Below, in pieces: positions 1,009 through 25,694 of a DNA stretch of 25,694 bases. The position numbers and the translations under genes were made by a program. Location: positions 1 through 25,694 of the IMG/VR virus record IMGVR_UViG_3300045912_000927; one strand, given 5' to 3'. Every line of letters starts with the position of its first letter. Positions within the stretch are counted from its first letter, which is position 1. This DNA comes from a virus. Under the pieces are notes generated by a model. It ran no database searches. It was not told where the DNA came from and saw only the letters and a program-made list of their open reading frames with translations.

Positions 1009-3252
1009 ATGCTCCTCGCCCGGAGCCTTGCGGCCGTCTATCACCCCCAGATGCAGAGCAACGGGAGCAGGGACCAGTCCGGCGCACCCGCCGAAGTCCT
1101 CGCCGGCACGATCGAGCGGGTGACCTTCCACAACACGGAGAACGGCTTCTGCGTGCTGCGTGTGAAGGCGCGCGGCCGCCGCGACCTGATCACCTTGGTC
1201 GGCCATGCGGCGTCGATCTCGGCGGGCGAGTGGGTCACAGCCACAGGCGAGTGGGTGAACGACCGCACGCACGGGCCGCAGTTCCGCGCACGCTTCCTGC
1301 GCGCCTCTGCACCGACCACGGCCGAGGGGATCGAGAAGTACCTGGCGTCAGGGATGATCCGCGGCATCGGCCCCGGCTACGCCAAGCGCCTGGTGCGCAC
1401 CTTCGGCACCGAGGTGTTCGACGTCATCGAGCAGTCGCCCGCGAAGCTGCGCGAGGTCTCCGGCATCGGGCCGCTGCGCGCCGAGCGGATCTGCGCGGCC
1501 TGGGCCGAGCAGAAGGTGGTGCGGGAGATCATGGTGTTCCTGCACAGCCATGGGGTCAGCACGGCGCGCGCGGTGCGGATCTTCAAGACCTACGGCAACG
1601 ACGCCGTGCAGGTGATGTCCGAGAACCCCTACCGGCTCGCCCGCGACATCCGCGGCATTGGCTTCAAGACCGCGGACCAGATCGCGATGCGGCTGGGGAT
1701 CGAGAAGACCGCGCTGATCCGGATCCGGGCAGGGATCTCGCACGCGCTGGCCGAAGCGATGGACGAGGGCCATTGCGGCCTGCCAGCCGACGAGCTGGTG
1801 CCGCTGGCGGAGACGCTGCTCGAGGCGCCGGCGCCGCTGGTCGAGACCGCGCTCGATCTCGAGCTTGGCGACGGCACGGTGGTGGCGGCGGAGGTGGACG
1901 AGCGGCGGGTGATCTTCCTCGCCGGGCTTCATCGTGCCGAGCGGGGCATCGTGGAGCGCCTCGCGGCGATCGCGGCCGCACCTTCGCCCTGGCCGGCGAT
2001 CGATCCCGGCAAGGCGATCCCGTGGGTCGAGCAGCGCGCCGGCATCGTGCTCGCCGACAGCCAGCGCGCCGCTGTCTCTGCGGCGCTGGCGAGCAAGGTG
2101 CTGGTGATCACCGGCGGCCCCGGGGTGGGCAAGACCACGATCGTCAACGCGATCCTGAAGGTCCTCGCGGCCAAGGGCGTGCGCATCGCGCTCTGCGCCC
2201 CCACCGGTCGGGCAGCAAAGCGGGCGAGCGAGGCGACGGGGATGGAGGCCAGGACCATCCACCGGCTGCTCGAGGTGAACCCAGCCTCGGGCGGCTTCCG
2301 GCGCGATGCCGAGCACCCGATCGACGCCGATCTGGTCGTGGTGGACGAGACCTCGATGGTGGACGTACCGCTCATGCACGCGCTGCTGCGAGCGGTGCCG
2401 GACCAGGCCGCAGTCCTGCTGGTGGGCGACGTCGATCAGCTTCCCTCCGTCGGCCCCGGCCAGGTGCTCGCCGACCTGATCAGTTCCGGCGTGGTGCCGG
2501 TGGTGCGCCTGACCGAGGTGTTCCGCCAGGCGGCGCAGAGCCGGATCGTCCAGGCGGCGCACCGCATCAACCGCGGCGAGATGCCGGAGGGCACGCCGGC
2601 GGGCCAGGACGGAGACTTCTACATCGTGTCCGTCGACGGGCCGGAGACCGCGGCCGAGCGGATTGTGGCGCTGGTGACGCAGCGGGTCCCCGAGCGCTTC
2701 GGCCTCGACCCCGTGCAGGACATCCAGGTGCTCTGCCCGATGAACCGCGGCGGCTCGGGCGCGCGGGCGCTCAACCTCGCCTTGCAGGAGGCGCTGAACC
2801 CGGAGCCCGCGCAGAAGGTCGAGCGCTTCGGCTGGCGCTTCGCGCCCGGCGACAAGGTGATGCAGATCGACAACGACTACGAGAAGGAGGTCTACAACGG
2901 CGACCTCGGCCGCGTCGTGGCAATCGACGAAGAGCTGGGCGAAGTGGTGGTGCAGTTCGATGGCCGCGATGTGCGGTACGGCTTCGGCGAGCTCGACTCG
3001 CTGGTGCCGGCGTTTGCGACCACGATCCACAAGAGCCAGGGGTCGGAGTACCCTGCGGTGGTGATCCCGGTGGTCACCCAGCACTACCCGATGCTGCAGC
3101 GGAATCTGCTCTACACCGGGGTGACGCGGGGCAAGCGGCTGGTGGTGCTCGTCGGGCAGCGCCGTGCGATCGCGATCGCGGTGCGTGGCGGGGTGGCGCG
3201 CCGTCGCTGGTCACGACTTGCGACGTGGCTGCGGGAGGTCATGGGCCCATGA
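1009..3252 (+). CDS. recD2: RecD2-type ATP-dependent DNA helicase
   Basis: This is a superfamily 1B helicase of the RecD2 class, which unwinds DNA 5'-to-3' and acts in repair independently of RecBC. The 747 residues show the family order. An N-terminal OB-like segment precedes helix-hairpin-helix motifs (GIGPGYAKR near 119-127, SGIGPLRAERI, RGIGFKTADQI). Walker A GGPGVGKT lies at 369-376, Walker B DE at 446-447, GDVDQLPSVGPG at 473-484, and a C-terminal UvrD-like part has ATTIHKSQGSEY near 670-681 and YTGVTRGK at 702-709. All ATPase motifs look intact, and the length matches the usual 720-750. Two starts are possible: ATG 1009 and ATG 1051 (residue 15). The second fits homologues at least as well, and neither has a strong Shine-Dalgarno. 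The stop overlaps the next gene by four bases. Such genes are common on plasmids and integrated elements; a link to the neighbouring prophage is inference. Confidence 0.93.
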   Translation: MLLARSLAAVYHPQMQSNGSRDQSGAPAEVLAGTIERVTFHNTENGFCVLRVKARGRRDLITLVGHAASISAGEWVTATGEWVNDRTHGPQFRARFLRASAPTTAEGIEKYLASGMIRGIGPGYAKRLVRTFGTEVFDVIEQSPAKLREVSGIGPLRAERICAAWAEQKVVREIMVFLHSHGVSTARAVRIFKTYGNDAVQVMSENPYRLARDIRGIGFKTADQIAMRLGIEKTALIRIRAGISHALAEAMDEGHCGLPADELVPLAETLLEAPAPLVETALDLELGDGTVVAAEVDERRVIFLAGLHRAERGIVERLAAIAAAPSPWPAIDPGKAIPWVEQRAGIVLADSQRAAVSAALASKVLVITGGPGVGKTTIVNAILKVLAAKGVRIALCAPTGRAAKRASEATGMEARTIHRLLEVNPASGGFRRDAEHPIDADLVVVDETSMVDVPLMHALLRAVPDQAAVLLVGDVDQLPSVGPGQVLADLISSGVVPVVRLTEVFRQAAQSRIVQAAHRINRGEMPEGTPAGQDGDFYIVSVDGPETAAERIVALVTQRVPERFGLDPVQDIQVLCPMNRGGSGARALNLALQEALNPEPAQKVERFGWRFAPGDKVMQIDNDYEKEVYNGDLGRVVAIDEELGEVVVQFDGRDVRYGFGELDSLVPAFATTIHKSQGSEYPAVVIPVVTQHYPMLQRNLLYTGVTRGKRLVVLVGQRRAIAIAVRGGVARRRWSRLATWLREVMGP

Positions 3253-5704: not shown

Positions 5705-6400
5705 ATGTGCGGGCGATTCACCAAGCATCTGTCGCACGGAGAGCGCGCGGCCCTTCGGGCGCAGGAGTTCAGGGAGATCCCGAGGACGACACCGAACCCG
5801 CTGGCGGTGTCGCGCGCCCGCTACAACGTCGCGCCCTCGCAGCCGATCGACGTGATCCGCCGCCACCCCGAGACCGGCGCGTTGCAGGAGGACCCGTTGA
5901 TCTGGGGCTTGGTGCCACGCTGGACCAAGGATCTGAAATCGGCACGGAAGCCAATCAACGCGCGCTCGGAGACGGTGCGGACCAGCGGGATGTTTCGCGA
6001 CAGCTTCATCCGCCGCCGCTGCCTGGTACCGATGGATGCCTTCTACGAATGGTCGGGCGAGAAGCCTCCGAAGCAGCCATGGGCGATCGCGCGGCGCGAT
6101 GGTCAGGAGATGCTGGTCGCGGCGATCTGGGACGGCTGGCGCGACCCGACCAACGGCGAGGTCCTGCGCACGGTCGCCCTGCTGACGACTGACGCGAATG
6201 AGACGCTGCTGCCGATCCACCACCGCATGCCGGTGATCATCGAGCCGGCTGATGTCGAGACGTGGGTAGGCGACGACGCGGACGCAGCTGCCGAGCTCAT
6301 GCGGCCAGCACCCGACGATGTGCTGCGCGCGTGGCCCGTCTCGCGCGCGGTGAACGACGTGCGGCGGGACGGCCCCGAGCTGCTGGAGCCGGTCGAGTAG
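5705..6400 (+). CDS. SOS response-associated peptidase family protein (SRAP, YedK/HMCES-like)
   Basis: SRAP proteins react through the amino group and thiol of Cys2 with the aldehyde of an abasic site in single-stranded DNA, forming a protective covalent thiazolidine crosslink. All hallmark residues are visible: MCGRF with Cys2, PINARSET with N85, FYEWSG with E115, and IHHRMPVI with H172, matching C2, N75, E105 and H160 of YedK. NVAPSQ and WGLVPRW are further family signatures. At 231 residues it has the usual length. ATG 5705 must be the start because Cys2 has to follow Met1; a GAGGG-like ribosome binding site precedes it. Stand-alone SRAP copies are common on plasmids and phages. The gene converges on the prophage operon across the terminator at 6433-6506. 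Confidence 0.95.
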   Translation: MCGRFTKHLSHGERAALRAQEFREIPRTTPNPLAVSRARYNVAPSQPIDVIRRHPETGALQEDPLIWGLVPRWTKDLKSARKPINARSETVRTSGMFRDSFIRRRCLVPMDAFYEWSGEKPPKQPWAIARRDGQEMLVAAIWDGWRDPTNGEVLRTVALLTTDANETLLPIHHRMPVIIEPADVETWVGDDADAAAELMRPAPDDVLRAWPVSRAVNDVRRDGPELLEPVE

Positions 6401-6432
6401 CGTCGCGCGATCCGCCCTCCAGACGCGCGAAA

Positions 6433-6506
6433 GGCCCCGCCGGCGCGTCCCTGATCGGGCTCCCAGCGCGCTCGCGCGCTGGGAGCCCGGGACGGCCGGC
6501 GGGGCC
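6433..6506 (-). terminator. Nested hairpin terminator of the prophage late operon
   Basis: The outer arms 6433-6451 and 6489-6506 pair over 18 bp (12 + 6, with one unpaired G at 6445). On the minus strand the right-to-left transcript leaves the stem into TTTCG, giving a short U-tract just after the last tail gene. The loop holds TGATC plus a second perfect 14-bp hairpin (6457-6488), which belongs to the dispersed palindrome family. With the inner element removed, the outer arms close over a five-base TGATC loop, as expected of an ordinary intrinsic terminator. The site also separates the converging SRAP and tail genes. Confidence 0.75.
6457..6488 (+). repeat. Dispersed palindromic element, copy 1 (intergenic, in terminator loop)
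   Basis: This is a perfect inverted repeat: a 14-bp stem beginning GGGCTCCCAGCGCG, a four-base loop CTCG, and the exact complement. It shares the GGG-NN-CCCA ... TGGG-NN-CCC frame and a central CTCGCGCG with copies 3 and 5 read on the minus strand; it differs from copy 3 at 3 of 32 positions. It lies between the two arms of the operon terminator. Confidence 0.85.
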
Positions 6507-6529: not shown

Positions 6530-7810
6530 TCAGGGGAGGCGGAACACGGTGCCGTCGTGGACCACGGTGACGAGCGCGGATGCCGGCAGGTCGCCGGCGG
6601 CGAGATCGACCGTGCCGTCGCCCTTGCGGATGGCGACTGCGCCGAGCCCGTCGACGTTCAGCGTGGCGGCGCCGGTGTTCGCGGCCGCACCGTTGATGAA
6701 GCGGACGGTCAACCCAGCGAAGTACGACCCGAGCGCCGGCGTGAGCCCAACCGTGCGCGCGTTCGCGCTGCCGCCGGCGGCGCCGCCCCAGGTATTCAAC
6801 CCGCGCGCGCCGGCGATCGACGGCGCCTGCTCGGCGGTCGAGACCTCGATGACCTCGATGGCGAAGAAGGTCGCGGCATCGGCGAGCACCGTCGTCGGCG
6901 TACCAAGCCCGGTGCGGTTGACGCGCAGCTCGAAGTAGTCGCCCGGCGAGACCGCGAGCACCGGGGAGATCAGGAAGGCGGCGTTGTCCGTGAAGCCGGT
7001 GCCGCCGACGCGCACCGCCCACATGGCGGTGCCTGGGAAGGCTGGGCTCGGCGTGGCCCCGTTGCGCAGGAACTGCAGATTGATCGCGCCGACGCTGGCG
7101 GCGTCGGGGAAGCGCACCGAACCGTGCAGCCGCACCCGTGTCACACCGGCGGGCACGGTGAGCCGCGTCGGATTGCCGGCGGACCAGAAGGCGTCGGTGT
7201 CGTAGACGGCGGTCTGCCAGGCGGCGATCCAAGGGAATGACAGGCTCGTGGCGTCTGCGGTGCGGCGGAGCAGCGCGCCGCGGAACGGTACGGCCCAGTT
7301 GCCGGCGGAGAGGCCCGGGGTGAAGAATTCGAGGCCGGTCTCGCCGAGGTTCATCCGCACCGGCTTGAGCGACTGGCCGGCATAGGACGAGGGCGTGTCG
7401 TCGAGGTCCCGGAAGTTGGCGGCGCCGCCGCCCCCGCCGCCGCCGCCGATCGGGCGGATGCCGTTCGTGGTGCCGTCCGTGTACACGGTGAGCGCAGCGC
7501 CGGCGGGCACGGCCACGCTGCCCGCGCCACGCGCCACGGTGAGTGCCTCGGCCCCGTCGGCGTTGTCCACGGCGACCTCGCGGCGGATGGCCGGCACGGT
7601 GAGCGTGCGCGGCACGCTGACGCCGACGGCGCGGAAGACCCGATGCCGGCGGTACTGCTCGGCGGTGAGCGCGACGTCACCGGCGGAGAGGTCCACCGTC
7701 AGCACCTCGGTCACGGCGCGGTCGAGCAGATCGACCGCCTGGTTGATGGTGACCTCCTTCTGCGCCTGGGCGGCGGCGAGGTGCGGGACGGCAAGGTTCG
7801 GGCTGGTCAT
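6530..7810 (-). CDS. Tail fibre-like protein with DUF2793-type N-terminus
   Basis: The 426-residue product is the last gene of the late operon and probably forms a receptor-binding fibre or appendage attached to the tail tip. Residues 1-35 (PHLAAAQAQKEVTINQAVDL) match the start of DUF2793 tail proteins. After a beta-rich segment there is an eight-glycine hinge near residue 125, then FRDLDDTPSSYAGQ, a motif recurring in phage fibres. A jelly-roll-like region (about 215-330, with VRLHGSVRFPDAASVGAINL) resembles C1q-type carbohydrate- or protein-binding domains. The C-terminus (VRFINGAAANTGAATLNVDG) is a common fibre repeat module. Its ATG overlaps the stop of the tip protein (ATGA). No chaperone gene follows before the terminator. 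Confidence 0.8.
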   Translation of the reverse strand: MTSPNLAVPHLAAAQAQKEVTINQAVDLLDRAVTEVLTVDLSAGDVALTAEQYRRHRVFRAVGVSVPRTLTVPAIRREVAVDNADGAEALTVARGAGSVAVPAGAALTVYTDGTTNGIRPIGGGGGGGGAANFRDLDDTPSSYAGQSLKPVRMNLGETGLEFFTPGLSAGNWAVPFRGALLRRTADATSLSFPWIAAWQTAVYDTDAFWSAGNPTRLTVPAGVTRVRLHGSVRFPDAASVGAINLQFLRNGATPSPAFPGTAMWAVRVGGTGFTDNAAFLISPVLAVSPGDYFELRVNRTGLGTPTTVLADAATFFAIEVIEVSTAEQAPSIAGARGLNTWGGAAGGSANARTVGLTPALGSYFAGLTVRFINGAAANTGAATLNVDGLGAVAIRKGDGTVDLAAGDLPASALVTVVHDGTVFRLP

Positions 7811-13343: not shown

Positions 13344-15586
13344 CAGAGGCTCCGCTGCGCGCGCTGGAGCCCGCGCGCCATCGCCGCGGTGATCTGCGCC
13401 TGCGACGCGCGGAAGCTGTCCGCGTCGGCGGCGGTGACGTTCATGATCACGGTCGGCGGGCTCCCATCGAACGGAGTTCGATGGGGACCCGCGCCGCCGA
13501 GCGCGCGCTGCGCATCGCGCTTCGGCACCACCACCTCGCCGCGCTGGAGGATCGCCGGGTACTCGTCGGGCCGGAACCAACCGTCATGCAGCCGCGGCGC
13601 GCCGGTGAAGGCGAGCGCGGGCACGCGCCGCATCGGCACGGCGCTCGCACCGACCTCGCCGCCCTCGTGGAACAGGCCCGCCAGGAACGAGCCGATGCCG
13701 GAGAAGATGCCGCCGATCCCGCCGCCGGAGATCCCGCCCAAGGCCGAGTTGAACAGCGCCAGCAGCGGCTCGGTGACCAGCTTGCGCGTGCCGAGCCGGA
13801 GAAGATCCTGCTCGATGCCCTTCAGCACATCGCCGAAGCTCTTTCCGCGCACGATCGCGCCCTCGAATGCGCTCTCGAAGGTGAGCCCGAGCTGGCGCGC
13901 GACGTCATCGACCTCGGCGGTCTTCTGCTCGGCGCGGCTGAGCTCGTCGAGTAGGGTCTGCGCACGCCGGCCGATGATCGCGTCGGCCTCCGTCGCACCG
14001 AAGCGGCCTTCGAGCACGGGGCGGAGCTCGCCCAGGCGTTCGAGCGCGGCGACGTAGCGTTCCAGCGGCGTGCGGGTCTCCTCATAGAGCCGCCCCGCCT
14101 CCTGAAGCGCCGTGTTCTCGGCACGCCGCGCCTCCTGAAGATCGAACAGCGCGTTCGCCAGACGCTCGGCCTCCGCGCGTTGGACTCCACTGACGCCCGC
14201 GATCCGCTCGGCGACGAAGCGCTCGCGCTCGTCGGCCAGCCCGGCAAGCTCGACCTGCCGGCGGAGTGCGTCGATGCGGCGTTCCTCGGCGCCGACTGCC
14301 GTGGCGGTGGTGCGTGTGAGCCGCTGCAACGCCTCGTCGCGGGCGCGCAGCGCATCGGTATCGAGACGCTGCCGCTCGGCCGGATCGACCGCCCCGGCCT
14401 CGGCCGCACGGCGGATGCGGTCGAGCCGCTCCTGGTACTCGCGCTCGATCCGCACACGCGCATCGAAGGTCTCGCGCAGCCCGGCGATATCCTCGGCCGC
14501 ACGCTGACGGCGGAGCTCCGCCTCGTTCGCGCCGGCGCGCGTGCGGCCCTCGACGATCTCGCGCGCGCGCTCCTCGAACTGCGCGTTGCGCTGACGCAGC
14601 GCTTCCAGCCGCTGGTCGATCTCCGCGAGCTCGCGGTCGATCTCCTGGACGGTGACGCGCAACGGACTGGCAAGACCGCGTTCCTCCAAGGCGCGCCGCG
14701 TCGCGTCCTGGGAGAAGACCACCCCGCCGCCGGCCTCGCGCGCCCGCAAGAGGTCGGCCCGCCGCGCTTCCAGCCGCCCGATCTGCTCTGAGACCGGCAC
14801 GCCGAAGGCGACGCGGCCGATCTGGTCGGCGATCGCGCCGAGCGCCGGAGCGACGCTGGCCAGGAGGTTGGTCGCCAGCGTCGAGAACGCACTGTTCAGC
14901 TTGGCGATGCGATCGGAGGCCTGGTCGGCGCGCGCGATCAGCTCCGCATCCGCGATCTGGCCGAACCGCAGCGCCTCGGCGGTGAGCCGTTCCAGTCCCT
15001 CGCGCCCCTGGGCGAGGAAGGGAATGAGTCGCTGGCCGAGCCGGTCGCCGAACACCTCGGTGGCGATGCGCGCCCGCTCGGCGGGGCTTTCGACCGCGGC
15101 GATGCGGTCGGCGATGTCCGCGAGCACGCCCTCGGTTGCGCGCGCATTGCCGGAAGCATCCAGGAACGCGACGCCGATGCGGCGGAAGGCTTCCTCCGCC
15201 TGCCGCCCGCCGGTCGCGGCATCGCCGATGCGGCGCGTCAGCGCCGCAAGGCCGCGGTCCAGCTCCTCGTTGCGCAGCCCGACCTCGACCGCGGCGAAGC
15301 GGAACGCCTGCAAGGCATCGGTGGACACGCCGACCTGATCGGCGAGTTCGCCCAGCCCGCCCACCGCATCGACCGCGCGGCGGGCGAAGTTGGCGAGTGC
15401 GCCGACCGAGAGCGCGCCAAGGCCGATGCCGAGCAGGTTGAGCGCGGATGACGCGCGCTGCGCCCCGCCGACGATCCGCGCAAGCGCCTGGTCGCCGGCC
15501 TCGCCGGTACGCGTCAGTTCCTGACGTGCCTGCTGCGCGCCGTCCACCGACAGCCGAACCGAGAGCCGGCGCGTCGCGTCAGTCAT
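13343..15586 (-). CDS. Tail tape measure protein (lambda gpH-like)
   Basis: The 747-residue protein sets tail length and is expelled with DNA. An N-terminal helical lead (RLSVRLSVDGAQQARQEL) precedes a hydrophobic stretch near 50-65, a tape-measure core (FGDRLGQRLIPFLAQGREGL), and long charged coiled coils (about 270-520). The C-terminal lambda-type region is FESAFEGAIVRGKSFGDVLK, then LALFNSALGG and a glycine-rich hydrophobic segment. The end (FHEGGEVGASAVPMRRVPAL, then EYPAILQRGEVVVPK) is common in this class. Start ATG 15586 has GGAGG seven bases upstream. Near residue 700 the gene carries an in-frame copy of the dispersed palindrome (13458-13490), read as AGPHRTPFDGSP. The gene overlaps the T reading frame by eight bases. 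Confidence 0.93.
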   Translation of the reverse strand: MTDATRRLSVRLSVDGAQQARQELTRTGEAGDQALARIVGGAQRASSALNLLGIGLGALSVGALANFARRAVDAVGGLGELADQVGVSTDALQAFRFAAVEVGLRNEELDRGLAALTRRIGDAATGGRQAEEAFRRIGVAFLDASGNARATEGVLADIADRIAAVESPAERARIATEVFGDRLGQRLIPFLAQGREGLERLTAEALRFGQIADAELIARADQASDRIAKLNSAFSTLATNLLASVAPALGAIADQIGRVAFGVPVSEQIGRLEARRADLLRAREAGGGVVFSQDATRRALEERGLASPLRVTVQEIDRELAEIDQRLEALRQRNAQFEERAREIVEGRTRAGANEAELRRQRAAEDIAGLRETFDARVRIEREYQERLDRIRRAAEAGAVDPAERQRLDTDALRARDEALQRLTRTTATAVGAEERRIDALRRQVELAGLADERERFVAERIAGVSGVQRAEAERLANALFDLQEARRAENTALQEAGRLYEETRTPLERYVAALERLGELRPVLEGRFGATEADAIIGRRAQTLLDELSRAEQKTAEVDDVARQLGLTFESAFEGAIVRGKSFGDVLKGIEQDLLRLGTRKLVTEPLLALFNSALGGISGGGIGGIFSGIGSFLAGLFHEGGEVGASAVPMRRVPALAFTGAPRLHDGWFRPDEYPAILQRGEVVVPKRDAQRALGGAGPHRTPFDGSPPTVIMNVTAADADSFRASQAQITAAMARGLQRAQRSL
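13458..13490 (-). repeat. Dispersed palindromic element, copy 2 (in tape measure gene)
   Basis: Two perfect 10-bp arms (CCCATCGAAC and GTTCGATGGG) close over a three-base loop and are flanked by GGG and CCC. It is identical at 31 of 33 positions to copy 4 in the protease/scaffold gene and encodes nearly the same peptide (HRTPFDGSP against HRTLFDGSP), in two unrelated proteins. Confidence 0.85.
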
Positions 15587-16267: not shown

Positions 16268-16295
16268 GGGTACCTCCGGTCTTGAAACTGCGTGG

Positions 16296-16321
16296 CGGTA
16301 TGTCAAAGTCTGACATGACCG
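16296..16321 (+). promoter_or_regulatory. Inverted repeat, probable ParD operator
   Basis: The arms CGGT-ATGTCA and TGACAT-(G)-ACCG pair over 10 bp around a five-base AAGTC centre, with one unpaired base in the right arm. The repeat ends 17 bp before the antitoxin ATG and lies between the divergent G and parD-like genes. ParD antitoxins usually repress their own promoter through ribbon-helix-helix binding to such repeats. A TTGAAA at 16282-16287 could be a -35 element, but no convincing -10 is seen. Confidence 0.55.
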
Positions 16322-16338
16322 AGTCACAGGAGGTCGGG

Positions 16339-16611
16339 ATGCCGAACGTCAGCCTGACGCCCGAGCTCGAAGGCTTCGCCGAGCAGTGCGTAGCCTCGGG
16401 GCGCTACGGCAATGTCAGCGAGGTGATGCGCGCGGCCCTGCGCCTGCTGCAGGAGCAGGAGGCCAAGCGGGAGGCCTTCACACGGATGCTGGAAGCGGCG
16501 GAGCGTGAGGGCGACGAGCGCGGCTGGTTCGAGATCGACCAGGTCGCCGAGGAGATGGATGCGATCATCGCCGAGGCCGAGGTGAAGCGGAGCCGGGAGA
16601 CGGCACGCTGA
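16339..16611 (+). CDS. ParD-like ribbon-helix-helix antitoxin
   Basis: The 90-residue product begins MPNVSLTPELEGFAEQCVAS, then GRYGNVSEVMRAALRLLQEQ. This is the ribbon-helix-helix fold and signature of ParD (type II) antitoxins, where the N-terminal half binds operator DNA and the acidic C-terminal tail wraps the toxin. The tail here (EAFTRMLEAAEREGDERGWF, EEMDAIIAEAEVKR) fits. AGGAGG precedes ATG 16339 at normal spacing, so it is preferred over the upstream in-frame ATGs. The gene lies on the strand opposite to all prophage genes around it and is followed with a four-base overlap by its probable toxin. It is a moron-like insertion between tail genes. Confidence 0.92.
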   Translation: MPNVSLTPELEGFAEQCVASGRYGNVSEVMRAALRLLQEQEAKREAFTRMLEAAEREGDERGWFEIDQVAEEMDAIIAEAEVKRSRETAR

Positions 16612-16940
16612 GCTCGGCGCATGAGCGCCCGGCGATCCTCTCTCCACGGGCGCGGCGGGATCTTGCAGAGGCTGCCGCCTACATCGCCGGCGACAACCCC
16701 GCTGCCGCACGCCGTCTGCGGGAGGAGGTCGTGGCGGCTGCGGTCCGGATCGGCCAGTACCCGCTGATCGGCTCGGTGCGCCCTGTGCTTGCGCCCGAGA
16801 GTGTTCGGTTCCTGATCGTGACGGGCTTTCCCTACGTCATTGTCTATCGCAGCACGGTGACGCCGCCGCGGATCCTGCGCGTCCTGCATGGCGCGCGGGA
16901 TCTGCCGGATGCGCTGCGTGGCGTGTCTGGCGAACGCTGA
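16608..16940 (+). CDS. ParE-like toxin (RelE/ParE superfamily), probable CTG start
   Basis: The protein reads ILSPRARRDLAEAAAYIAGD, NPAAARRLREEVVAAAVRIG, SVRFLIVTGFPYVIVYR and PRILRVLHGARDLPDAL. This is the full ParE pattern: N-terminal helical hairpin, antiparallel sheet, terminal HGARD. ParE toxins generally inhibit DNA gyrase. No ATG, GTG or TTG lies in this frame from about 16551 to the GTG at 16731, and that late start would remove the helical hairpin. CTG 16608 overlaps the antitoxin stop as CTGA and has GGGAGA seven bases upstream, giving 110 residues, near the usual 95-105. The start is inferred from this context. Its 3' end is three bases from the converging tail tube stop. Confidence 0.87.
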   Translation: MSSAHERPAILSPRARRDLAEAAAYIAGDNPAAARRLREEVVAAAVRIGQYPLIGSVRPVLAPESVRFLIVTGFPYVIVYRSTVTPPRILRVLHGARDLPDALRGVSGER

Positions 16941-19632: not shown

Positions 19633-19976
19633 GGCTCTCTCCGGCAGTAGACGCGCCACGCCACGCCGATCGCCGGGACCCCAGCGCGCGAGCGCGCTGG
19701 GAACCCGTCGCGCTCGGCGTGCGTGACGATCAGCACGTCAGGGCCAACGGTAACGCTGTCGCCCGCGGCGAGGTCGGGAACGTCCGCGACCGCGACGGTG
19801 AGCACGTCGGTGGCCTGGATCACGGCGACGTCGAAGGCGGACGCCACCCGATCGGGCGACGACCGCACCACGCGCACGGGTACTGGCTCCCCGGTTCCGC
19901 CCTGGCGCCACGCCGCATCCACCCCGACGTGCGGGTCGGCGAGGATGTCGCCGAGCGCCGCGGCGAAGACGTCCAC
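19629..19976 (-). CDS. Probable head-tail joining protein (lambda gpFII position)
   Basis: The 115-residue protein begins MDVFAAALGDILADPHVGVD, contains AAWRQGGTGEPVPVRVVRSS and ATDVLTVAVADVPDLAAGDS, and ends in a strand (AIGVAWRVYCRREP). This resembles gpFII-type connector proteins, small beta-barrels that bind the portal end of the filled head and receive the tail. The position one base after the major capsid gene agrees with lambda E-FI-FII. Near its end the gene carries an in-frame palindrome copy (19675-19706), read as GFPARSRAGVP. It falls between two strands, where homologues usually have a short turn. Family call is by order and pattern, so moderate. Confidence 0.72.
   Translation of the reverse strand: MDVFAAALGDILADPHVGVDAAWRQGGTGEPVPVRVVRSSPDRVASAFDVAVIQATDVLTVAVADVPDLAAGDSVTVGPDVLIVTHAERDGFPARSRAGVPAIGVAWRVYCRREP
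19675..19706 (-). repeat. Dispersed palindromic element, copy 3 (in head-tail joiner gene)
   Basis: The element is 32 bp, with outer GGG/CCC and ten consecutive inner pairs from CCCAGCGCGC around a two-base centre, broken only by two mismatches after the outer GGG. Read on the minus strand it matches copy 1 at 29 of 32 positions, including the central CTCGCGCG. It is read in frame as GFPARSRAGVP. Confidence 0.85.
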
Positions 19977-21479: not shown

Positions 21480-21893
21480 TCAGTGCTGCGCGGCCGCGGC
21501 GCGCGCGCGTGCGCGGCGGACGATCGGGCTTTCCGGGCTCCCATCGAACAGAGTTCGATGGAGACCCGCGTCGCTGCTGCCCGGCTTGGGTGCGGCGGCG
21601 ATCACGGCGCTCGCTTCGGCGCGCGCGGCGAGGGTGTCGAGGACCGAGCGGCGCAGCGCGTGGGCGGCGACGCCGCGGCGGATCGCGTCCGCCGCATCGA
21701 CCGTGACGCCGAGCCGCGCGGCCTGCGCCGCGACCTCGGCGATCTCCGCGGCGGCAGCGCGCGCGGCGTCGTCCGGTGGTGCCGGCGCAGGCTCCGGCGG
21801 CGTGACCTCGCGAGGCTGCGGCGGATCATTCTGCTGCGCCTCTTCGGGGATGTCCTCCCGGCGCGCATCGTCGGTCGGGGTCTGCTCAGTCAT
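21480..21893 (-). CDS. Nested scaffold protein (lambda Nu3-like internal start)
   Basis: Inside the protease gene and in the same frame, Met300 (ATG 21893) is preceded by AGGAG seven bases away, a strong ribosome binding site in the middle of a coding region. The 137-residue product (TEQTPTDDARREDIPEEAQQ, then helical EIAEVAAQAARLGVTVDAAD and HALRRSVLDTLAARAEASAV) has the acidic, disordered start and helical end typical of scaffolds. Lambda Nu3 arises exactly this way from gene C. The scaffold directs capsid protein assembly and is removed by the protease. A further in-frame ATG (residue 273) has no comparable ribosome binding site. Confidence 0.82.
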   Translation of the reverse strand: MTEQTPTDDARREDIPEEAQQNDPPQPREVTPPEPAPAPPDDAARAAAAEIAEVAAQAARLGVTVDAADAIRRGVAAHALRRSVLDTLAARAEASAVIAAAPKPGSSDAGLHRTLFDGSPESPIVRRARARAAAAQH

Positions 21894-24500: not shown

Positions 24501-25694
24501 TCAGCGCAGGTAGGACGGGGTGAACACGCGCCGGCCGCGCAGCAGACGACGACGGAGGACGCCGGCAGAGGGTGGCGGCGCATCGCCCACATCCGGTTGG
24601 TGCGACGTCACTGGTGCAGGCACGTCATCATCACCGCTGGGCGCGACCGGGTGCCCATCGCGCGAGCAGGATGGGAACCCGACCTGCGCCTCGAGATCGC
24701 GCCAGGTCGCCTCGGTCCAGCGATCCGCGCCGGCGATCCAGGCCGCGGCGCGGGCATAGACGCGGCAGTCCAGCACCTCGTTGCGCTCCCTCAGCTTCTG
24801 CCACTCGAGCCGGGCGAAGCCGCGCTTCGTGCGCACGCTCACCAGCTGCTCGGCCACCAGCTGCTTCACCCACTCCGCCTCCATGCCGCGCGGCAGGTGG
24901 ACGTAGCCGGCGGGGTATGGGGTCCCAGCCGCGATCTCCTCGTCGGTGGGGCGGCTGAGCCGCAGGAAGCGATAGGTCTCGCTCTTGAACGTGGCGACGG
25001 CGACGGTCCAGAGCCGCGCACCACGACGCAGCTTGCGCCCGCCCTCGGTGACATCGACGTAGCTCGGACCCGCGATCGGCGCGGCACGGTTGAACCCGTC
25101 CACCCCCTTCACAGGCACCACCTGGGCATGCCCGGCTCGGCGCGCCCAGGCATACACCGCGGGCGCCTCGTAGCCGGTGTCGATCGCGAGCTTGGCGAGG
25201 CCAAGCCGCGCCCCGCTCGCATGCACCCACGTGCGGCCGAGCAGCGCGGTCAGGCTCGCCCACGTCCCCGCATGCTCCGGGCCGCCGTCGATCACCACAT
25301 GGTCGAGGAACCAGCTCTCGAGGCCACGCCCCCAGGCCCAGATCGAGACCTCGATCCGATCCCGCTGCACGTCCGCCCCGGCAGTCAGGAACAGCGCGCC
25401 AACCGGCACCGTGCCGATCGCCCAGTCCTCGCGGCGCTCATAGAGCCGCTGCCAGTCCGGCGCGTCGCCGCGCTCCTGCCAGGTCTCGCCCAGCACCGTG
25501 TTCCTGAACGTCTTCAGATCCTCGGGCTTGCCCTGCGCGGCCTCCCAATCGCGCGCGATCTGCTCCCAGGACAGCCACCCGACCGGGGAGTAGAGCGCCG
25601 AGATGTGGAAGCCGACCGTGTGCGGATCCTCAGCCACGGCGGTCGCGCGCCACTCGCCGCGCGCGAGCATCGCCGTCTTGTGGTGCTCCTCGAC
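24501..25694 (-). CDS. Terminase large subunit (lambda GpA family), C-terminal part
   Basis: The frame is open to the right edge, so this is the C-terminal about 397 residues of a protein normally of 600-700; the packaging ATPase domain lies outside. The visible part begins in the linker (HHKTAMLARGEWRAT, VGFHISALYSPVGWLSWEQI) and continues into the nuclease domain: FLTAGADVQRDRIEVSIWAW with the catalytic Asp, LAKLAIDTGYEAPAVYAWAR with the second Asp, and DCRVYARAAAWI near its end. The enzyme cuts concatemeric phage DNA and drives packaging. The tail after about 25 kb-1 kb is low-complexity and carries an in-frame palindrome copy (24649-24680), read as GFPSCSRDGHP. The stop TGA-equivalent lies at 24501-24503. 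Confidence 0.93.
   Translation of the reverse strand, partial: VEEHHKTAMLARGEWRATAVAEDPHTVGFHISALYSPVGWLSWEQIARDWEAAQGKPEDLKTFRNTVLGETWQERGDAPDWQRLYERREDWAIGTVPVGALFLTAGADVQRDRIEVSIWAWGRGLESWFLDHVVIDGGPEHAGTWASLTALLGRTWVHASGARLGLAKLAIDTGYEAPAVYAWARRAGHAQVVPVKGVDGFNRAAPIAGPSYVDVTEGGRKLRRGARLWTVAVATFKSETYRFLRLSRPTDEEIAAGTPYPAGYVHLPRGMEAEWVKQLVAEQLVSVRTKRGFARLEWQKLRERNEVLDCRVYARAAAWIAGADRWTEATWRDLEAQVGFPSCSRDGHPVAPSGDDDVPAPVTSHQPDVGDAPPPSAGVLRRRLLRGRRVFTPSYLR
24649..24680 (-). repeat. Dispersed palindromic element, copy 5 (in terminase gene)
   Basis: This 32-bp copy keeps the GGG-NN-CCCAT ... ATGGG-NN-CCC frame and the central CTCGCGCG (minus strand). It is the most decayed copy, with three mismatched pairs in the stem. 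It is read in the same phase as copy 3 and gives the similar peptide GFPSCSRDGHP. Confidence 0.75.

Follow-up and report, generated by a model that had tools for sequence, protein, structure and literature searches.

The window, that is, the whole stretch of 25,694 nucleotides of viral DNA analysed here, contains a GC-rich hairpin at positions 6433-6506 that lies between two convergent genes. One is a tail-fibre-like gene whose transcript is predicted to end at the hairpin; the other, recognised by sequence alone from its start (MCGRFTKHLS...), is a gene that we take to be SRAP/YedK-like. An inner palindrome, copy 1 of the element described below, occupies the loop formed by an outer stem (Table 1). 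The calculated RNA folding energy of the hairpin is -85.0 kcal/mol for the plus strand and -82.4 kcal/mol for the minus strand, with z-scores of -6.68 and -6.44, respectively, and none of 200 shuffled sequences was equally stable. The minimal hairpin has 32 base pairs, in agreement with the double hairpin of about 32 stem pairs described in an earlier note on this DNA. A simple terminator scan of the window hairpin called no terminator; the stem is strong and the U tract is just UUU. An Rfam search of the window returned zero matches.

Several other features were observed in the window. Positions 1-477, at the contig end, hold an open reading frame resembling the first subunit of an IS3-type transposase, and positions 1009-3252 encode a RecD-like helicase that is 73% identical to Acidiphilium plasmid genes. 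On an Acidibrevibacterium plasmid, a RecD-like helicase gene likewise adjoins a YedK-like gene. At 16282-16940, small plus-strand genes oppose the phage operon and resemble, by eye, a ParD/ParE toxin-antitoxin pair.

Table 1. Coordinates of the hairpin components, the flanking genes and the element sites in the window
Feature	Position	Strand	Remarks
Left outer arm, GGCCCCGCCGGCGCGTCCC	6433..6451		Conserved in L005, L006 and L009
TGAT spacer	6452..6455		Missing in empty L005; TAAT in L006/L009
Palindromic element copy 1, CGGGCTCCCAGCGCGCTCGCGCGCTGGGAGCCCG	6456..6489		34 nt visible; 16 bp perfect arms
Right outer arm, GGGACGGCCGGCGGGGCC	6489..6506		G6489 common to arm and element
Short U tract	6430..6432	-	UUU then CGCGCG, 3' of the stem
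Tail-fibre-like gene	6530..7810	-	Predicted transcript end at the hairpin
SRAP/YedK-like gene	5705..6400	+	Convergent with tail-fibre-like gene
Element copy, 3' part of tape-measure-like gene	13457..13491		In frame; relatives empty
Element copy, small head-tail gene	19674..19707		In frame, net 33 nt; L056, L063, L058 and L065 empty
Element copy near 3' end of S49-protease-like gene	21534..21568		In frame, net 36 nt; L019, L057 and L076 empty
Decayed element copy, 3' part of terminase gene	24648..24681		L076 empty; second element nested inside in L019
Empty site in terminase gene	25270..25280		In-frame element in L019 and L020

A family of short palindromic inserts

The inner palindrome is not a chance one, since four further copies of its family occur in the window, for a total of five in 25.7 kb; a reversed-pattern control gave zero matches there. 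A search of viral contigs with a degenerate pattern identified 66 stretches, to which a second core type added a few. After removal of duplicates, the catalogue comprises approximately 48 sites in approximately 70 viral contigs; a few of the sites are decayed or doubtful, and because the catalogue was built with exact patterns it is biased toward well-paired copies. When oriented, the copies read CGGG-YT-CCC-core-GGG-GW-CCCG, such that a core stem of about 8 bp is extended by CCC/GGG, followed by a 2-nt mismatch and then by an outer GGG/CCC. The core types are TCGCGGC/GCCGCGA, TCGCAGC/GCTGCGA, TCGAAC/GTTCGA, TCGCGC/GCGCGA and AGCGCGC/GCGCGCT.

An empty counterpart at the orthologous position could be matched to 29 unique sites. 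The net insert size is 36 nt at 16 of these sites, 39 nt at four, 35 nt at three, 33 nt at three, and 37, 38 and 45 nt at one site each. In coding site pairs the net size is a multiple of three in every case (16/16), indicating that selection certainly acts on insertions, and in intergenic pairs it is 35-38 nt. Neither a target motif at any position around the empty-site junctions nor a consistent target-site duplication of fixed length, a feature of MITEs, was detected among the 29 filled/empty pairs; a possible GACG duplication is seen at one site only (L029:498). The earlier description of copy 1 as a discrete unit with defined ends holds for the unit, which is mostly 36 nt net across the 29 sites, and is not supported for the exact ends, as the junctions vary by 1-3 nt.

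Within the window, the flanks of the copy in the small head-tail gene make a weaker hairpin of their own. The empty site in the terminase gene encodes GGP-E-HAG, versus GGP-DRAPIEQSSMGSR-HAG in L019 and L020. At L019:2355-2415, one element appears to be nested in the left arm of another, with a net difference of 36 nt relative to L057, suggesting that elements can enter each other. In addition, an element lies right after a TGA stop codon, beside a small hairpin, at seven loci (L029:498, L034:5554, L047:1078, L059:2677, L064:2694, L068:4972 and L074:1025), and its presence or absence at these sites is scattered among close relatives.

Conservation of the core stem through compensating core types (TCGCGGC/GCCGCGA, TCGAAC/GTTCGA, AGCGCGC/GCGCGCT) is what would be expected of a functional signal for protein binding, DNA uptake, packaging or mRNA processing, as opposed to a selfish repeat. 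However, orthologous sites are present or absent in a scattered manner and the copies lie in unrelated genes and in several reading frames, and we consider a signal function quite improbable. Readings of the element as an uptake sequence, an att site or an assembly artefact were set aside because it occurs as an indel of 36 nt in numerous genes that are unrelated to one another, and in many samples.

Searches of cellular sequences were also carried out. When genomes were scanned with the fibre protein, a single distant match resulted. The element pattern was essentially absent, with one lone match, from 385 genomes of the class of that match and from the genomes of several families and orders picked by RecD or terminase matches, and these genome searches revealed neither a cellular genome with many copies nor a transposase linked to the family. 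Weak copies occur on plasmids of Methylobacterium and Methylorubrum. Degenerate family copies were observed at L021:2500-2533 and L022:1499-1680, in Methylorubrum and Methylobacterium records, and a 2.8 Mb M. bullatum record contains no canonical copy.

Empty and filled hairpins

The earlier note proposed looking for the empty terminator in related prophages that share this fibre gene at the end of the late operon, and this test succeeded. L005, which is on the same contig as L012, has a fibre gene that is 78% identical to that of the window, followed by an empty hairpin that is exactly 36 nt shorter. This empty site reads GGCCCCGCCGGC-CGTC-TCC-GGGACG-CGCTGGCGGGGCC-TTTC and shares the tail TTTCGCGCGTC with the window hairpin. 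In L006/L008 and L009 the element is present at the same position as in the window, with ATTA in place of the window's ATCA. Both outer arms are intact in empty L005 and in filled L006 and L009, bearing out the observation that the element leaves them whole, and the TTTC that follows the outer stem is conserved in all four relatives compared. In this comparison of relatives, the folding energy of the fibre terminator changes from -36.5 kcal/mol when empty to between -63 and -77 kcal/mol when filled. A search for additional filled copies of the fibre terminator turned up just L008 and the contig of L009.

The sequence TGATC, which had been regarded as the ancestral loop, is missing from L005, whose empty loop is TCCGG/CCGGA. 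Given that TGAT is missing there and is replaced by TAAT in L006/L009, the spacer would have come with or after the insertion. The description of the outer arms as an ordinary terminator with a short minus-strand U tract is correct as to the stem and the UUU (6432-6430) and incorrect as to the TGATC loop. The outer and inner arms, both GC-rich inverted repeats that fold as one structure, could conceivably have arisen jointly as one long hairpin by local duplication, in the absence of any mobile unit. This joint origin, named in the earlier note as the result that would have spoken against insertion, is contradicted by L005, which has the same outer arms without the inner ones, and by the recurrence of the inner sequence at approximately 48 unrelated sites with orthologous empty sites; it is barely credible. 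Orthologous sites of the family occur both filled and empty, with a difference of mostly 36 nt net that stays in frame within genes, and the outer hairpin is conserved with or without the element. These comparisons support insertion into a pre-existing hairpin, as the earlier note had read the locus, and we infer that copy 1 entered the loop of the fibre-operon terminator hairpin.

Of the loci with a second hairpin, GAGCCCCGCCGGC-nnn-GCCGGTCGGGGC, two (L050 and L069) carry the element in the loop and 16 others are empty. In L061 the stem of this hairpin has changed in a compensatory manner, from GGC/GCC to GGG/CCC. In a tree of the flanking sequences, L069 is sister to empty L061 and L050 falls among empty loci, and the two filled junctions differ from one another; two independent entries into this hairpin are thus likely. 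A third hairpin, downstream of a capsid gene, carries the element in its loop in L031, L054 and L078 and is plain in L026, L042 and L081, none of which is an exact empty counterpart.

The second hairpin bears on whether the element could instead be ancestral at the fibre hairpin, with the empty hairpin of L005 as the product of a deletion. The window, L006 and L009 are filled and only L005 is empty. Identities at the fibre end are about 79-82% (81.4% for the window and L005, 81.1% for the window and L006, 82.5% for L006 and L005), so the lineages are about equidistant, and at this terminator gain elsewhere and loss in L005 fit alike. Palindromes are deletion-prone and are often lost through replication slippage. 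Nonetheless, the second hairpin is empty in 16 of 18 loci and its filled copies are scattered, which would require many losses, and we regard deletion as doubtful. Even if the element was deleted in L005, it would be a discrete unit in a loop.

Loop occupancy was assessed by folding the flanks of each site, because a simple gapless score did not detect the terminator stem, which contains a bulge. Taken over all sites, the flanks are no more stably folded than random positions (Mann-Whitney P 0.37), and coding insertions show no hairpin preference. In the extreme tail (flank fold ≤ -30 kcal/mol), there are 4 of 48 sites versus 0.25 expected, two of which (L031 and L054) represent the same orthologous site. 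Among intergenic sites, as defined by home-made codon-model gene calls, 3 of 18 lie in very strong hairpin loops by this same threshold, where positions drawn at random between genes would give an expected 0.14 (P ~3e-4); when the window's own site, the case that prompted the search, is left out, the count is 2 of 17. This excess consists of few events and concerns intergenic copies only, and it suggests that the family may favour loops. Of the two causes proposed earlier, preference for hairpin loops or selection, the first may be reflected in the excess of loops among intergenic copies and in the one other loop entered twice, and it does not extend to coding copies.

Proposed origin of the filled terminator

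The reading that we favour, with a probability of roughly 0.7, is that a REP/RPE-like, non-autonomous palindromic repeat of approximately 36 nt entered the loop of the fibre-operon terminator hairpin and that the outer stem was kept, loops being either tolerated or preferred. Such repeats would have dispersed among the phages compared here, whose bacterial hosts are GC-rich. The target may be structured or single-stranded DNA, as suggested by the loop excess among intergenic copies and by the other loop that was probably entered on two separate occasions, with a putative Y1/HUH transposase acting in trans or, alternatively, template switching at a hairpin-stalled fork. The insert would pair with itself and the outer stem would still form, taking the fold from about -36 to -77 kcal/mol. 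Since the insert folds on itself and the outer stem persists, the hairpin probably still terminates the fibre mRNA or protects its 3' end.

Selection surely plays a part as well, removing insertions that disrupt a stem or a reading frame. Insertion could even be blind to structure, with selection alone keeping harmless copies, namely those in frame within genes and those in loops rather than stems between genes. The in-frame state of all 16 coding sites, the lack of hairpin preference among them, and the short, hairpin-rich intergenic space of phages are all consistent with this explanation, which we place somewhat below an even chance. It does not readily account for the excess of loops over random intergenic positions, because plain spacer should tolerate the element equally well or better, or for two entries into one loop of 3-7 nt, although the numbers are small in both cases. 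At the other extreme, and only tentatively, a 36-nt repeat directed by secondary structure may enter loops, notably those of terminators, in single-stranded form, with no motif or target duplication and with a length that keeps reading frames.

Given many orthologous filled and empty sites and a near-constant insert of 36 nt, the insertion rule is directly testable. The family bears on how the smallest bacterial repeats with no known transposase move, and it indicates that terminator hairpins can be lengthened, with the stem unbroken, by loop insertion.

Comparison with known repeats

The CGTC-tagged REP superfamily (Di Nocera et al. 2013, PMC3733652) is alphaproteobacterial and includes RPE-4 and RPE-6 of Rickettsia conorii; the available part of that account describes palindromes of 20-40 bp with no known transposase. 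Like the phage family, these repeats are short and palindromic and occur both between genes and in frame within genes. They have one stem of 8-9 bp, a 4-5 nt loop, CGTC as a tag on one end and a tail of CCA, whereas the phage family has a longer stem with a 2-nt internal mismatch (GGG-NN-CCC...GGG-NN-CCC) and no CCA tail. CCCGTC is found at 12 of 64 family ends versus a 5% background (P 6e-5), and most ends are without it. Hairpin-loop insertion is a feature of the phage family that was not encountered for CGTC REPs in the same part of PMC3733652.

The GTAG-tagged REPs mobilised by RAYT/TnpA-REP (PMC8266576) resemble the phage family in forming an imperfect single hairpin with internal mismatches and in possible single-stranded movement. 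The GTAG tag used by RAYTs is absent from the phage family, and neither GTAG nor any conserved flanking tetranucleotide was found in 37 oriented sites. Organelle palindromes, namely yeast mitochondrial GC clusters and double-hairpin or repetitive hairpin elements, have inserted into RNA genes and into the coding sequence of var1, within its reading frame (PMC4478555, PMC2800124). They share with the phage family GC-rich hairpins of 30-45 nt, scattered presence, and merging or nesting; the differences are that these palindromes are organellar and that direct AG/ACT repeats border the yeast clusters, with no consistent ones at the phage copies. Finally, certain insertion sequences are likewise mobile DNA that chooses palindromic targets, in their case REPs (PMC1525189), but they are full elements with a transposase, whereas the phage element is a gene-free insert of 36 nt.
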